From contig JADYYS010000063.1 of assembly GCA_020853525.1 (NCBI GenBank), positions 1 through 51,348 of the forward strand: 51,348 nt of DNA, in the 5' to 3' direction. Shown here piece by piece: positions 3,819 to 13,178 of this stretch (positions are counted from its first letter, which is position 1; every line of letters begins with the position of its first letter). Source of the DNA: Ardenticatenales bacterium. Lineage in GTDB: Bacteria; Chloroflexota; Anaerolineae; Epilineales; Epilineaceae. Below the pieces are notes generated by a model. That model did not search any database. It was not told the origin of the DNA and saw only the letters and a program-made list of their open reading frames with translations. A program made the position numbers and the translations under genes.

Positions 3819-3903
3819 TTCGTGCGTCCGTTGACCGGCACGCAACCCCGACGGCCCGCGACGAGTCATAATGACCGCCGGTCGTCACGGGAAGGGGTGC
3901 GCC

Positions 3904-5706
3904 ATGCTTCGTCGTCACACGCGGTCCGCCAAACGATCGCCTCGGACTGCAGCGCAGTCGAACGGGTCGGGGCCATCGATCCTGCTGGCCGGGCTGCTCG
4001 TGACCGCGACGCTCGCCTCCCTGGACGTGCAGCGCCCGAACGCGGCGGAACACGCGCGCTCGGGCGCCGACGCGACGTCGACGGTCTACCTGCCGCGCGT
4101 TGAACGCGATGTCGGCTCGTGGCCGGATCCGGCGCTGGCCGATCGCATTTGGGGCGCCCTGGAAGCGTTCGAGCGCCGCCATCCGCTCGAAACGCTCGTC
4201 CCGAGCGTCGACGTCACGCCGTCCATCGCCGCCGCGGTGGTGAACGTCGACGCCGCTTGCGCGGACTTCCCCGACATCCCGGACGTGTTCGGACCGGGCG
4301 CGCACCGCAGCGCCTGCCGCGTCTGGGTGCCCGACGCCTTCGGGCTGTACCATGCCGCACGGGCGCTCCGTCTCGTGCAGGCCGGGCGGCCCTTGACGGA
4401 CACCGACGTCATGCGTCATCACGACTGGGCCCAGGCCTACCTGGCGGAGTCCGTTCGCGTGTTGCAGTTGTTCGTCTTCGTACGCTGCGATCCGCCGAAC
4501 CCCTTCGGCCCGAACGAAACGGGTCGCTGCTTCGGCTACCGCGACACGCGCGCCGCCGTCTGGCAGAACACGCAGCGGGCGATGGAGGTCGGCGTGCTCG
4601 CGGATGCGGTCGCCCGGACCGGCGGCATCCACCCCGACACCGCCGGACCGCTCGACGACGTCCTCGTCAGCACCGCTCGGGCCTGGCGTGCCGCGTTCTG
4701 GTCGGCGCAGCGCATGCCGAACGCGCGGCTGGATTTCACCACGCGCACCGCCGCGGAGTCGCCGGCCCGCTCGCTGGGCGACGAGGACATCGCCGCGGCC
4801 GTCTCCCACACGTTCCGCTGGGACGCCGACAAGCGGAACTCACCCGCCGAGGAGATGGCCTGGATGGGCGCGGGCGTCGTCGTTGCGATGGCCGTCGCGG
4901 GCGGCCGGATCGCGGCCGACGAGAAGGACGATCTCGTGGCCGCCGGTCGCCATTATGTCGATTACGCACTCACCTTCGACCGCCCCGACCCGGTGTTCGG
5001 CGTGCCCGTCCGCACCCTCGGGGCCGAAACGGACGGCGGACCGTATGGCCAGAACCGCTATTGGATCGAGAACCACCAGGACGATGCGCCCTCGCTGCCC
5101 TACCTCGGCTTCACCTGGGCATCCATCGGCATCGCCCAGCTGACGAGCGACCGGCCGCTGGGCGCGATCTGGCCCACGTTCGCGCCGCGGGACGCATGGT
5201 CCGTGCTGGCCGCATCGGCCGAGGCAACGCTGATCATGCCCGACGGCCAGAGCCTGGCCGATCTCCGGCCCGGCAACGGCGTCGGCTTCGACGTCGCCCG
5301 TTATCCGCTCTGGACGATGCCGTGCGGCGCGCACCACACCGGGGCGCTGTACATCGACGTCGGCGCCGATCGCCCCGCCGGCAGTCCGCGGTATGTCTCC
5401 GAGATCGGCCACCCCGCCGGCCTCTCGATCCTCCTGGCGGGCGTGCCCCTGATCCGCACCGCCCTCGCCGCCGGCGACCTGTCGACGGCCGCTCGCTGGC
5501 AACGACGCGTCGACGCCGTCCTGGCCGAGTACACCGCTAACCCGCCCGGCTTCAACGGCGTGCCGTGCAAAGTGGCGCCTTGGGTCTCGACGTTGCCGGC
5601 GTACCATTGGGCGTACATGATCAACGCCTACCTCTACCCATGGTTGGTCGCCAGCGGCCATCGGATCGGCGACCCGGACGGCGCGGTGCCGACGATCGGT
5701 GACTGA
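3904..5706 (+). CDS. Secreted or membrane-tethered helical protein of unknown function
   Basis: A 600-residue protein. A long basic N-terminus is followed by a hydrophobic stretch (residues about 25-40), consistent with a signal peptide or membrane anchor, then the short motif VYLPRV at 61-66. The rest is predicted to be mainly helical and rich in Trp, Tyr, His and Asp, with segments such as YWIENHQDDAPSLPYLGF and a Cys-containing C-terminal part. That pattern resembles alpha/alpha-toroid carbohydrate-active enzymes, but I cannot place it in a named family. ATG 3904 is preferred over the in-frame ATG 3871 because GGAAGGGG lies just before it. Its stop overlaps the Nudix gene by 8 bases, so the two are probably co-translated. 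Confidence 0.75.
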   Translation: MLRRHTRSAKRSPRTAAQSNGSGPSILLAGLLVTATLASLDVQRPNAAEHARSGADATSTVYLPRVERDVGSWPDPALADRIWGALEAFERRHPLETLVPSVDVTPSIAAAVVNVDAACADFPDIPDVFGPGAHRSACRVWVPDAFGLYHAARALRLVQAGRPLTDTDVMRHHDWAQAYLAESVRVLQLFVFVRCDPPNPFGPNETGRCFGYRDTRAAVWQNTQRAMEVGVLADAVARTGGIHPDTAGPLDDVLVSTARAWRAAFWSAQRMPNARLDFTTRTAAESPARSLGDEDIAAAVSHTFRWDADKRNSPAEEMAWMGAGVVVAMAVAGGRIAADEKDDLVAAGRHYVDYALTFDRPDPVFGVPVRTLGAETDGGPYGQNRYWIENHQDDAPSLPYLGFTWASIGIAQLTSDRPLGAIWPTFAPRDAWSVLAASAEATLIMPDGQSLADLRPGNGVGFDVARYPLWTMPCGAHHTGALYIDVGADRPAGSPRYVSEIGHPAGLSILLAGVPLIRTALAAGDLSTAARWQRRVDAVLAEYTANPPGFNGVPCKVAPWVSTLPAYHWAYMINAYLYPWLVASGHRIGDPDGAVPTIGD

Positions 5707-6376
5707 CCACGCCGCCGTGGTTGCGCGCCTGCGCCGCCGCCTGGCTGCCGGCGATCTGCCCGGCGAGTCCGCGTTCGGCGCTCTCTCCGTTCCCGGCCGC
5801 GCCGGCCGCACGGTAGCCGAGGCGCGCGCAGGCGGCGCGCGCGAGGGTGCGGTGCTCGTGCTGATCTACCCCAACCCGGAAGCGCCGCACGTCGTGCTGA
5901 CGGAGCGCCTCGCAACGCTGCGCGACCACGCCGGCCAGATATCGCTGCCCGGCGGCCGCATCGAGCCCGGCGAGGGAGCACAAGCGGCGGCGCTGCGTGA
6001 AGCGGCCGAGGAGATCGGGATCCCGGACGGTGTCGAGGTCCTCGGCCCTCTCTCGCCGCTGTGGATCCCGCCGACGAACTTCCTCGTGTTTCCGATCGTG
6101 TCCGTGGCGGTCGCCCGCCCGACGTTCCGCCCATCGCCCGACGAGGTGGCGGCGCTCATCGAGACCCCGCTGCACGTCCTCGCCGCTCCGCTCGCCCGGG
6201 GCACAGTCGTCCGCACCGGCCTCGACGGACGGCCGCGCCGCGTGCCGGCGTTCCACATCGAAGGTCGCGCGGTCTGGGGTGCGACGGCGATGATCCTCGC
6301 CGAGCTCCTCGCGCTACTCGATGAACGCGCAACGCCGCATCCGGCAGTCGTGGACAGGCCGTCACCCCGCCACTAG
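5699..6376 (+). CDS. Nudix hydrolase, CoA pyrophosphatase type (NudL/NUDT7-like)
   Basis: A 225-residue Nudix hydrolase. The Nudix box spans about residues 85-108 (GGRIEPGE, then REAAEEIGI), with the Glu residues that bind the divalent metal. It is preceded by VLTERLATLRDHAGQISL (66-83), which matches the signature of the CoA/acyl-CoA pyrophosphatase subgroup. Known members split CoA or its thioesters into 3',5'-ADP and phosphopantetheine derivatives. The start is GTG at 5699, overlapping the previous gene by 8 bases, which implies translational coupling. The acyl-CoA dehydrogenase and acyl-activating enzyme elsewhere in the window handle related substrates, but a pathway link is only a suggestion. 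Confidence 0.88.
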   Translation: MTDHAAVVARLRRRLAAGDLPGESAFGALSVPGRAGRTVAEARAGGAREGAVLVLIYPNPEAPHVVLTERLATLRDHAGQISLPGGRIEPGEGAQAAALREAAEEIGIPDGVEVLGPLSPLWIPPTNFLVFPIVSVAVARPTFRPSPDEVAALIETPLHVLAAPLARGTVVRTGLDGRPRRVPAFHIEGRAVWGATAMILAELLALLDERATPHPAVVDRPSPRH

Positions 6377-6421
6377 AATCGACCGGCTCCAGATCGGACA
6401 CGGACGACAGGCGGAGGGACG

Positions 6422-7405
<984 letters not shown>

Positions 7406-7508: not shown

Positions 7509-9542
7509 TCAGTTCGTCGCGGGGTCCGCGTACCGCAGGCCGCGGGGCAGATAGATCCGGCTGACGTGGTCGGCGACGTGGACACGGAGCTGCAGGCACG
7601 CGCACCCGCTGCGCGCGGCCAAGCCGCAGTCCTCCTGGTTGAACTTCAGTGCACGCGGCAGGTCGGGGTCGTTCGTCGGGCAGACACGCACTTCCTGCGG
7701 CGCGATGACGCTGCTCGACGACAGGCCGTTCGCCCAGCGGTCGAGGTTCTCTATGTTGATCACCAACCCGCGCATCGAGGCTTCGCCGCGCCGCTGACTG
7801 CGCGCCTCCTCCTCGAGCCACGTCGTCTCGGTGTAGATCGTCCAGGCTTCCACGTTGAGGTAGCGGTTGACGATGTAGTGCTGGATCTCGGGCTCGCCCA
7901 ACGGCACGAACGAGTGGATCGCCCGACCGCCGTCCAGTCGAATCTTGCGCGGCATCTGCTCGACGGTCCGCTCGAAGTCCAGCACGCCGCAGCCGTACGC
8001 ATCGTTCCGCAGCCAGTCGTCGTCACCGACCTCGAACTCGCCGAGCGTCTCATCCCGGTGCGCACCGCGGCACAGCTGCTCCTTGACCTGCAGCGGAGAC
8101 ATCGTCGGGTTGATCGTCTTCATCACCGCCGCGACCCCGGCGATGTGGGCAGCGGCGAAGTCGTCGGGAGCGAAGAGGAGGCGGAAGGGCGCGATCATCT
8201 GATAGGGCTGCTCGATCTCATGTTCTTCGTCCGTGCCGCCCGGTACGCGGTTGATCGTCGTGTAGAACCCCTCGCCCGGCGCCGCGATGTCCACCCACGG
8301 CCCCGTGCTCATCGTGCGGCGGCGCGCATACTTGTAGCCGTCCTCGTCGACGTGCGTTGCCGTCACGCCGATGACGTTGGAGCTGTTCGTGCGCGCCGGC
8401 CAGATGTCCGGATTCACGCCTTTCGGACACCCTTTGACCTGATCGCTGCGCTCGACGACGCCGCATTCCCCGGCCGGCGCGATGACGGGAATGCCCTTCG
8501 TTCCCGCATACGCGATCGCTTCCGACAGTCGCTTCACGCTCTCATAGCGCACCTCGTCGGGGATGAGCTCGCCCAACGGCAAGCCGCCGATCAGGATGAC
8601 CGTGGCGTCGTTCTTCGCCGCATAGCAAACGCCTTCGGTGATGCTCTTGATCCAGAATGCGGCGCCCCAACGGTCCGTTTCCGGGTCCTTGGCGGCAAAG
8701 GTGGCCTTGATCGGCAGGATCCGCGCGCCCCACGACACGCCGGCGATTCCCTCGCCGTTGTTCGTTTGTGCGGCCGCGATGCCTGCCATCTGCGTGCCGC
8801 GATTCAAGGCGCGCGCGACGGTTCGAGGTTCGAAGTAGAGCGGCTGCGGCTCGTTGTCGCCCTTCGTCGGTGCGTTCCAGTCGCGGCCGAAGTCCCAGCC
8901 TTGCACATCGTCGACGTACCCGTTCCCGTCGTCGTCCCGGCCGTTGTCGGCGATCTCGTCGTCGTTCCGCCGGATCTTGGCCTCCAGGTCCGGGTGTCCG
9001 AGGTCGACGCCGTCGCTGATCACCGCGATCGTCACGTCGTCGCGGCCGTAGCTCACCTGCCAGGCGTCGAACACGTGGAGCACCTGACCGAGGCTGTCGC
9101 TCTGGAAGTCGAAGTACTCGTCGTTGGGCTTCGTCGAGACGGACCCCTGCGCCACGTCGGCCGCGTCGAGGTCCGAGGCAAGTCCGGCCGCGGGCCGGAC
9201 GGCGTCGACTGCCGACATGCCGGGCGGCGGCAGCGCTTCATCGCCTGCGACGCCGAACACGCGCGGCGTGCCAGCCGGCGGCTGAAGCCGCGTCCGATCA
9301 CCCGCCGTGAGCGGGGCGAAGCCGAAGGCCTCCTGCGGGCGGAGCGGGCGCGGCTGAAGGGCCGCCAGCCATGCGGGCTCGCACGTCGTCGTCGCGAGCG
9401 CGACCTGTGCCTCAGAGGGCACGTGGGCGCGGGGTGCGCTCTGTCCCGCAACGCTCGGCGGTGCGGCCAACAAGACGCCAAGGACCGCCAATGTGGCCGC
9501 AGCGGGACGTGTGGGGCACGCGCGGCACGGAGGGAATCGCAT
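7509..9542 (-). CDS. Secreted subtilase-fold protein lacking the catalytic triad (pseudoprotease)
   Basis: A 677-residue exported protein with an N-terminal signal peptide (about 1-33, ending SVAG) and a clear S8 subtilase scaffold, including GHPDL, GTQMAGI, GIAGVSWGARI, VDIAAPGEG and AAAHIAGVAAVM. Every catalytic position appears changed. The Asp motif reads VISDGVD instead of VIDTGVD (Ser176), the His motif reads RGT instead of HGT (Arg248), the Ser motif reads DDFAAAH instead of GTSMAAPH (Asp461), and the oxyanion Asn of the AGN motif is Glu359. The frame is intact, so it is probably a binding or scaffold protein and not a protease. The C-terminal 150 residues are unassigned and contain several Cys. 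GGAGG lies 10 bases before ATG 9542. It is transcribed divergently from the acyl-CoA dehydrogenase. Confidence 0.88.
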   Translation of the reverse strand: MRFPPCRACPTRPAAATLAVLGVLLAAPPSVAGQSAPRAHVPSEAQVALATTTCEPAWLAALQPRPLRPQEAFGFAPLTAGDRTRLQPPAGTPRVFGVAGDEALPPPGMSAVDAVRPAAGLASDLDAADVAQGSVSTKPNDEYFDFQSDSLGQVLHVFDAWQVSYGRDDVTIAVISDGVDLGHPDLEAKIRRNDDEIADNGRDDDGNGYVDDVQGWDFGRDWNAPTKGDNEPQPLYFEPRTVARALNRGTQMAGIAAAQTNNGEGIAGVSWGARILPIKATFAAKDPETDRWGAAFWIKSITEGVCYAAKNDATVILIGGLPLGELIPDEVRYESVKRLSEAIAYAGTKGIPVIAPAGECGVVERSDQVKGCPKGVNPDIWPARTNSSNVIGVTATHVDEDGYKYARRRTMSTGPWVDIAAPGEGFYTTINRVPGGTDEEHEIEQPYQMIAPFRLLFAPDDFAAAHIAGVAAVMKTINPTMSPLQVKEQLCRGAHRDETLGEFEVGDDDWLRNDAYGCGVLDFERTVEQMPRKIRLDGGRAIHSFVPLGEPEIQHYIVNRYLNVEAWTIYTETTWLEEEARSQRRGEASMRGLVINIENLDRWANGLSSSSVIAPQEVRVCPTNDPDLPRALKFNQEDCGLAARSGCACLQLRVHVADHVSRIYLPRGLRYADPATN

Positions 9543-10086
9543 GCTCGAGCAACCTCCATGTGCCGCGCGGGGGGAAGCGACGGCGACTGGAACCGCTCAC
9601 CCGGCCGGCACGGCGTGCCGGAGCACAGAGCTTGGCAGAAACGGGTGAACGTATCGGACCGCTGGCAGCACGCATGCCGGTGACCCACATCGAAACCCTG
9701 CCGGGCGCGATGCTCGCTGGCTCGGATGCATGCGATGGGATAAGACGCGTTGACCGGCGACTAGGATACGCCCGAAGGCAGCCGTGTCAAGACCCCGCCC
9801 GTGCATGCGACACGCACCCGACAGCGCCAGACTTGTCCGGTTCCGCTCCATTTATGCTCCGCTTCGCCTGCACTTCCGATCGATCTCGGCTCCATCTCGG
9901 CTCCATTTCCGCTCCAACTCGGCTCCAACTCCACGCGCCTGCGCGGCCCCACTTCGCAGCCACCGAACCGGCTTGCGCCGACCACGCGCCTCCGGTATCC
10001 TCTCGCGCCCTGGCGCACCCGGCGCCGCCGACGCCCGGTGTTCCGGCCACGCTGCCGGCCGCCCCACTCGATCCGGAGCAGACGCC
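9543..10086. other. Divergent intergenic region between subtilase-fold gene and acyl-CoA dehydrogenase
   Basis: No gene is seen in these 544 bases. They contain a 17-base palindrome CCGGCACGGCGTGCCGG (9605-9621) and a degenerate 11-bp tandem array (9839-9932), annotated separately. Both divergent promoters must lie here, but I cannot pick out convincing -35/-10 pairs. The in-frame extension of the dehydrogenase reading frame upstream of 10087 reads through the repeat array and does not look like protein. Confidence 0.6.
9839..9932. repeat. Degenerate 11-bp tandem repeat array
   Basis: About eight units of 11 bp, best seen as ATCTCGGCTCC at 9883-9893 and 9894-9904, followed by ATTTCCGCTCC (9905-9915) and AACTCGGCTCC (9916-9926). 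Weaker units run back to 9839. The 11-bp period keeps the core GCTCC on nearly the same face of the DNA helix. It ends about 155 bases before the start of the acyl-CoA dehydrogenase gene. Confidence 0.75.
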
Positions 10087-12515: not shown

Positions 12516-13178
12516 ATGCGCAGGTGTGCGGTTACGATGGTATGGATCGCGCTGTTGGCGGTGTTCACCGGCACGACGGCGCATGCTCAGAACGTTCAGG
12601 GGATCAGCTTGCGGGCCGGTGAGGCCATGAAGGGTTCGCCGAGCGGAGTCGTCGACATCGTCGGCAACGGGACGTCCGCCAAGGTGGCCGTCGACCTATC
12701 CGGCGCCGCCGAGACGATGAAGCTCGCCGACTTCGAGGACGCCACGGCGTTCGTCGTGTGGGCCGTCGACATGGACGGCTACCGCCACAACATCGGCACG
12801 CTTTCGGACGAGCTGAAGATCGCCGAAGCCGCGGTCGAGTACCGCGTCGCCCGCGTGTACGTGACGGCCGAGGCGGACGAGAACGCTGCCGCGCCCACCG
12901 GCGACCCGCTGTACAGCGTGACGCTGCGCAACGTCACCGAGAAGTCCGGCGAGCCTGCCGGCGCTTCCAAGGCCAGCAGCGCCTCGACGACCGCGTCGAC
13001 GACCGCATCGACGACGAGCGGTTCCACGGCTTCGGGCGCGGCCAAGCCCGCCGCCGCCGGGGCGAAGCCGGCCAACCTGCCGACGACGGGCGGCGGGATG
13101 TCGGACATGATGGTCCTCGCCGCCGCCGCGCTGTTGCTCTTCGGCGTCGGCGCGCGCCTTATCGGCGTACGGGCGTAG
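12516..13178 (+). CDS. Secreted protein with LPxTG-like cell-wall sorting tail
   Basis: A 220-residue exported protein. The signal peptide covers residues 1-24 (cleavage after AHA). A compact domain (about 25-145) follows, with alternating hydrophobic segments such as FVVWAVDMDGYRHNIGTL. Next comes a Ser/Thr/Ala-rich linker of ASTT repeats, and the C-terminus is LPTTGGG, a hydrophobic stretch and a short basic tail (RLIGVRA). That order (motif, membrane span, Arg) is the layout of a sortase substrate; without sortase it would be a single-pass membrane anchor. No sortase gene is present in this window. The ribosome binding site TTAGGAGGA precedes ATG 12516. The function of the N-terminal domain is unknown. 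Confidence 0.8.
   Translation: MRRCAVTMVWIALLAVFTGTTAHAQNVQGISLRAGEAMKGSPSGVVDIVGNGTSAKVAVDLSGAAETMKLADFEDATAFVVWAVDMDGYRHNIGTLSDELKIAEAAVEYRVARVYVTAEADENAAAPTGDPLYSVTLRNVTEKSGEPAGASKASSASTTASTTASTTSGSTASGAAKPAAAGAKPANLPTTGGGMSDMMVLAAAALLLFGVGARLIGVRA

Follow-up and report, generated by a model that had tools for sequence, protein, structure and literature searches.

The DNA analyzed here (the window) is a stretch of 51,348 nucleotides from an Ardenticatenales bacterium of the class Anaerolineae (contig JADYYS010000063.1 of assembly GCA_020853525.1). On its minus strand, it carries a gene for a subtilase-like protein of 677 amino acids (positions 7512 to 9542, with the ATG at 9542 and the stop codon at 7509 to 7511), which was identified from the list of open reading frames (ORFs) and by Pfam and in which all catalytic positions are replaced. 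Peptidase_S8 (PF00082; residues 168 to 494, 4e-19, 69.4 bits versus a cutoff of 21.8) is the sole Pfam domain of the protein. A probable Sec signal peptide, as read from the sequence, occupies residues 1 to 33 (9444 to 9542, with the hydrophobic stretch AAATLAVLGVLLAAPPSVAG) and is followed by residues 34 to 136 (9135 to 9443), which correspond to the prodomain region of relatives with an intact catalytic set (termed live herein, as opposed to dead for those that have lost it at several sites). The subtilase (S8) fold domain, supported by Pfam, by an AlphaFold2 model, and by its superposition on a solved subtilase, spans residues 137 to 532 (7947 to 9134), and the C-terminal domain spans residues 533 to 677 (7512 to 7946), with a YLP tail motif at residues 664 to 666 found by motif scan (7545 to 7553). 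Within the fold domain, the alignments place an Asp-rich loop of the calcium type (residues 200 to 219, NGRDDDGNGYVDDVQGWDFG; 8886 to 8945), which is retained like in live relatives and may bind calcium. An ORF of 705 amino acids on the plus strand (7566 to 9683) was set aside as the true gene because the minus frame carries both the S8 match and the orthologues; it looks like a GC-rich shadow frame.

An initial annotation, made from the sequence, had proposed that all four catalytic positions of the S8 fold are changed, and three ways of setting the register bear this out: a phmmer alignment to solved subtilases, a profile alignment, and a MAFFT alignment of 218 sequences. Ser176 (9015 to 9017) stands in place of the catalytic Asp (AVI[S]DGVDLGHPDL versus canonical [D]TG), Arg248 (8799 to 8801) in place of the catalytic His (ALN[R]GTQMAGIA versus [H]GTHVAG), Glu359 (8466 to 8468) in place of the oxyanion-hole Asn (APAG[E]CG versus AAG[N]xG), and Asp461 (8160 to 8162) in place of the catalytic Ser (APD[D]-FAAAHIAG versus GT[S]MAAPHVAG). 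Written as a code in the order Asp-His-Asn-Ser, the protein is thus SRED. Conserved residues surround every site (I[S]DGVDLGHPDL, N[R]GTQMAGIA, AG[E]CG, and D[D]FAAAHIAG), which makes the register unambiguous. In the MAFFT alignment, 188 of the 218 sequences have DHNS and 8 further ones have a gap in the Asp column only, and departures from DHNS at several sites are confined to one family. The surrounding scaffold and the reading frame are intact, as had also been proposed: the frame of 677 amino acids is open, and 13 scaffold positions (W161, G178, H183, G249, T250, N262, G268, G358, P382, P422, A463, G469, and G517) are identical in 16 of the 16 dead sequences first examined.

The AlphaFold2 model of the window protein was built with 43 live relatives, the orthologues not being part of that alignment. 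Its predicted local distance difference test values were mostly above 90 (block means) over residues 137 to 532, with some loops at 52 to 80, and confidence was low in the N-terminal and C-terminal parts. Superposition, one of the checks proposed at the outset, matched the model to deseasin MCP-01 (3vv3) with a Z score of 43.0 and a root mean square deviation of 1.8 Å over 311 residues, and to many other solved active subtilases with Z scores of about 35 or more (range, 35 to 43). According to this model, the window protein retains the complete subtilase fold. Among solved proteins, its best relatives are live subtilases that are secreted, e.g., deseasin MCP-01.

Two other genomes of the same taxonomic family, from different genera, each encode one close relative with an open frame (41 to 43% identity; 374 and 292 bits, and 1124 and 962 bits with a profile of the trio, as we call these two orthologues and the window protein). 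The next best protein in 396 genomes of the class scored 227 bits, and the best matches beyond the family of the window were themselves dead. The catalytic positions of the orthologues are Ser-Arg-Glu-Asp (SRED) and Ala-Ser-Glu-Glu (ASEE), without a triad residue in either, and the option that orthologues might keep the normal triad fails for both. All three trio members have Gly-Glu-Cys-Gly in place of the oxyanion motif, and position 461 is Asp, Asp, and Glu across them. No trio member from outside this family emerged from a contig scan or a phylum survey, both of which yielded mainly live subtilases.

A shifted but intact catalytic set had been named as an alternative at the outset, with Asp177 taking the role of the Asp. 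This residue adjoins Ser176 and is invariant in the trio; however, the trio alignment shows no His or Ser conserved close to the required positions that could complement it, and the conserved His residues are the structural ones of the HPDL and AAAH motifs, which live relatives have too. The shifted triad was rejected for lack of conserved candidates, and continued hydrolase activity, through a shifted catalytic set or another one, appears very improbable.

Dead S8 proteins are not confined to the trio. All seven genomes of the order examined (G000, G001, and G002, which carry the trio, and G003 to G006) encode such proteins, 17 altogether, and G064 and G091, which belong to another family of the same class, contribute 4 more, for a total of 21. 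As read from the loci, G000, G001, and G002 have one dead S8 gene each, G003 has four (GCDE, SLDF, SPDF, and SRYP), G004 five (DWDE, SWDA, SWDS, SR-P, and a fragment, --DS), G005 three (DSDL, DYEE, and SYDA), G006 two that are intact (DYEN and SYDA), and G064/G091 four (DHDR, GHND, DLDH, and GHDY). A further gene of G006 is frameshifted and was left out of the count; its 5′ part has Ser for His, and its 3′ part lacks the catalytic Ser. This gene is split over two frames (L182, about 6125 to 6850; m_5150 and m_6173); the frameshift is either genuine or due to misassembly, and the G005 homologue of the gene is intact.

The commonest change concerns the oxyanion Asn: of the 16 dead proteins examined first, 15 have an acid (Asp or Glu) at position 359, and two relatives carry the Asn-to-Asp change alone (DHDS). 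These observations suggest that the oxyanion change came first. Since members have lost differing subsets of the catalytic residues (DHDR, DWDE, GCDE, and SYDA), Asp, His, Ser, and Asn were probably lost stepwise; loss of all four, on which the initial annotation had built, thus holds for the window protein, but not as a single package for the family. With an intact triad and Asp for the oxyanion Asn, L202 (G291) and L208 (G176) might be intermediates or acid-adapted enzymes. Elsewhere in the phylum, L243 (G429) and L260 (G558) have Asn for the catalytic His (GNGTHVAGI), apparently through independent losses.

When the four catalytic columns were left out of the alignment, a maximum-likelihood tree of 59 proteins split the 21 dead ones from 38 that keep Asp, His, and Ser (branch support, 87/83), and this dead/live branch was present in 86% of bootstrap trees, with none of 500 label shuffles as low. 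In an earlier, larger tree of 86 sequences, one branch (79/74) set apart the 12 order members identified by then, and the trio was supported at 100/99. A single clade of all dead proteins was not rejected by the approximately unbiased test (P = 0.42). A single origin of the dead subtilases is likely but not proven, because relaxed sequences can attract each other in trees.

The prodomain of live subtilases has a chaperone and an inhibitory role, serving both folding and inhibition. A prodomain hidden Markov model (HMM) matched 64 of 70 live relatives versus 7 of 16 dead proteins (Fisher P = 7e-5), and it detected no prodomain in the trio, including residues 34 to 136 of the window protein. The substrate strand differs as well, the Ser of its SxG motif (subtilisin Ser125) being Ser in 185 of 188 live sequences versus 6 of 16 dead ones, although the alignment of this strand is less certain. 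Dead subtilases other than the window protein have in common a C-terminal domain of about 115 to 145 residues with a conserved W...WL core. An HMM of this domain, for which nine dead order members were used, matched the four G064/G091 proteins at 8e-18 to 1e-29, versus 4e-12 to 3e-6 for seven live relatives. When the HMM was built without the trio, it matched the orthologues at E values of 1e-5 to 1e-6 and the window protein weakly, at 0.0014 to 0.002 (both in a small database; 88% probability by hhalign), and residues 533 to 677 would be a divergent member of this domain. No Pfam name was obtained for the domain; BACON_2 was below threshold in one relative (16.1 bits versus a cutoff of 25).

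Selection was assessed by Nei-Gojobori estimates of the ratio of nonsynonymous to synonymous change (dN/dS) for pairs of genomes with a live S8 gene in common, which served as the control. In G005/G006, one dead gene gave 0.34 and the 3′ part of a second one 0.29, versus 0.37 for the live gene; the ratios were 0.28 and 0.27 versus 0.21 for G064/G091 and 0.38 versus 0.32 for G000/G001; the pairs with G002 gave 0.65 (with G000) and 0.48 (with G001), with synonymous divergence (dS) near saturation. The dead genes are thus under purifying selection and constrained nearly as strongly as live ones. A random single-base change in the window gene has a chance of about 3% of creating a stop codon, and no stop is seen across the three diverged copies. 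That the gene is a decaying pseudogene caught before its first frame disruption is extremely improbable: several motifs evolve fast and one relative is frameshifted, but all three lineages are full-frame at about 42% identity, two neutral copies at ≥0.59 changes per site should have accumulated about 35 stops between them, and the ratios stay below 0.4 in all pairs but those with G002. Decay was rejected on the strength of these ratios and the expected stop count. The earlier view of a selected pseudoprotease, not a product of random decay, is supported by the orthologues with the same losses, the intact frames, the dN/dS ratios (mostly 0.27 to 0.38, versus 0.21 to 0.37 for live pairs), and the 17 dead genes in seven of seven genomes.

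The window protein is most probably a secreted pseudoprotease in which the subtilase fold has been reused for a noncatalytic binding or structural role. It would have lost catalysis, would be exported to the cell surface or to the outside, and would act by binding. The family, which occurs in one Anaerolineae order and a few relatives, probably descends from ordinary secreted subtilases; an acid would then have replaced the oxyanion Asn in nearly all members, and Asp, His, and Ser would have been lost thereafter in varying combinations, up to the window subfamily, in which all catalytic residues and the prodomain would have gone. The predicted product consists of a nonhydrolyzing subtilase fold, a small C-terminal domain, and a lineage-typical YLP tail, and its remodelled former active-site face would most likely bind an extracellular protein or peptide. 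Such a protein could be a ligand-binding or structural component of the surface, or it could, without cutting, pair with or compete with the numerous live subtilases of the cell. Several points weigh against this interpretation. The larger tree sets the four G064/G091 proteins apart from the other dead ones, and the clustering of dead proteins could be aided by long-branch attraction. The window protein is linked only weakly to other dead proteins through its C-terminal domain, its orthologues are 41 to 43% identical, with dS near saturation, and one family member is frameshifted. In addition, no conserved neighbourhood or genomic partner was found, the neighbours differing in every genome looked at.

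As to the role that a dead subtilase could play, it is possible, and we suggest it tentatively, that this order-wide, secreted, multicopy family (one to five per genome, with lineage-specific residues at the former active site) represents diversified extracellular binders or receptors that use the remodelled acidic pocket as the binding site. The protein might instead be a regulatory pseudoprotease that binds a live secreted subtilase, its substrate, or a propeptide and thereby modulates proteolysis. Regulation of this kind is plausible because the window genome has 24 S8 matches, with intact catalytic motifs in most of those inspected, and because G003, G005, and G006 have dead genes arranged in tandem or as divergent pairs, for which heterodimers are conceivable; CspC and CspA of Clostridioides difficile offer a precedent (PMC6636752). 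However, no live subtilase, and indeed no S8 gene, adjoins the window gene or its two orthologues, and the substrate-binding strand is remodelled too, which makes simple substrate competition unlikely; on balance, we regard a regulatory role as doubtful. It also seems rather unlikely that a new site, such as a metal or cation pocket formed by Glu359, Asp or Glu at position 461, and perhaps Asp177, has arisen from the old active site. Position 359 is nearly always acidic in dead proteins, and positions 461 and 177 are acidic throughout the trio, but many members have a nonacidic residue at position 461 (A, S, F, L, N, R, H, Y, or P). An ionic site made of Glu359 and Asp461 would therefore be possible for the trio and not family-wide.

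The window protein resembles active S8 subtilases of the thermitase/deseasin type, such as deseasin MCP-01, in its fold, its GxDDDGNGYVDD loop, its HPDL motif, and its predicted secretion, and differs from them in that the three catalytic residues and the oxyanion Asn are replaced and no prodomain is detected. Descriptions of bacterial pseudo-subtilases are scarce. In the C. difficile pseudoproteases CspC and CspA, which have a subtilase fold, two catalytic residues are substituted. Both are maintained with a biological role and operate together with the live protease CspB; CspC, the best studied, retains its prodomain, part of the triad, and a jelly-roll insert (PMC6636752). The window protein is likewise a maintained bacterial protein with a subtilase fold and predicted loss of catalysis. 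Unlike CspC and CspA, it lacks all four residues, the prodomain, and the insert, and its locus is not one of spore germination: no insertion of the size of the Csp jelly roll (about 130 residues) was seen in its alignments, 311 residues match the insert-free deseasin domain, and no S8 gene that might be a live partner comparable to CspB adjoins the window gene or its two orthologues. The subtilisin-like pseudoenzyme PIMMS2 of Plasmodium ookinetes shares with it a signal peptide and varying losses of catalytic residues or motifs among orthologues, but it is eukaryotic, has a transmembrane domain, and in Plasmodium berghei retains Asp, His, Ser, and Asn at the expected places (PMC5520436). While pseudo-subtilases as such are thus known (CspC, CspA, and PIMMS2), we found no description of a lineage-wide family with complete catalytic loss in the open-access literature, and such a family appears to be undescribed. 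With the catalytic set, the prodomain, and part of the substrate strand gone, the fold is nonetheless conserved and copied across an order, which would amount to outright reuse of the subtilase fold. Because members carry differing subsets of losses, the order in which the enzyme was dismantled is open to study. To annotate the genes as S8 serine peptidases on a domain match alone would misstate their function.

A few further features concern the cell surface and the surroundings of the dead genes. Within their last 25 residues, 13 of 16 dead proteins, 45 of 109 other S8 proteins from the Anaerolineae side, and 1 of 77 cross-phylum S8 proteins carry a [YF]-hydrophobic-Pro-hydrophobic motif (YLPLV.R type); examples are the tail at window positions 7545 to 7553 and those of L177, L025, and L148. 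The motif may serve as a tag, specific to the lineage, for the surface or for export. On the plus strand of the window, positions 3871 to 5706 encode a predicted secreted protein of 611 amino acids without a Pfam match, in which a similar motif, VYLPRV, follows just after the signal peptide. Also on the plus strand, positions 12516 to 13178 encode a secreted protein of 220 amino acids that ends in LPTTGGG, a hydrophobic stretch, and arginines and looks like an LPxTG sortase substrate. A gene with a sortase domain lies near the dead subtilase pair of G003 (L175, 10225 to 11463). In G004, a dead subtilase gene (L178, 5142 to 6934) is located downstream of a gene for an FHA/winged-helix protein, beside which a Ser/Thr kinase gene lies on the other strand.
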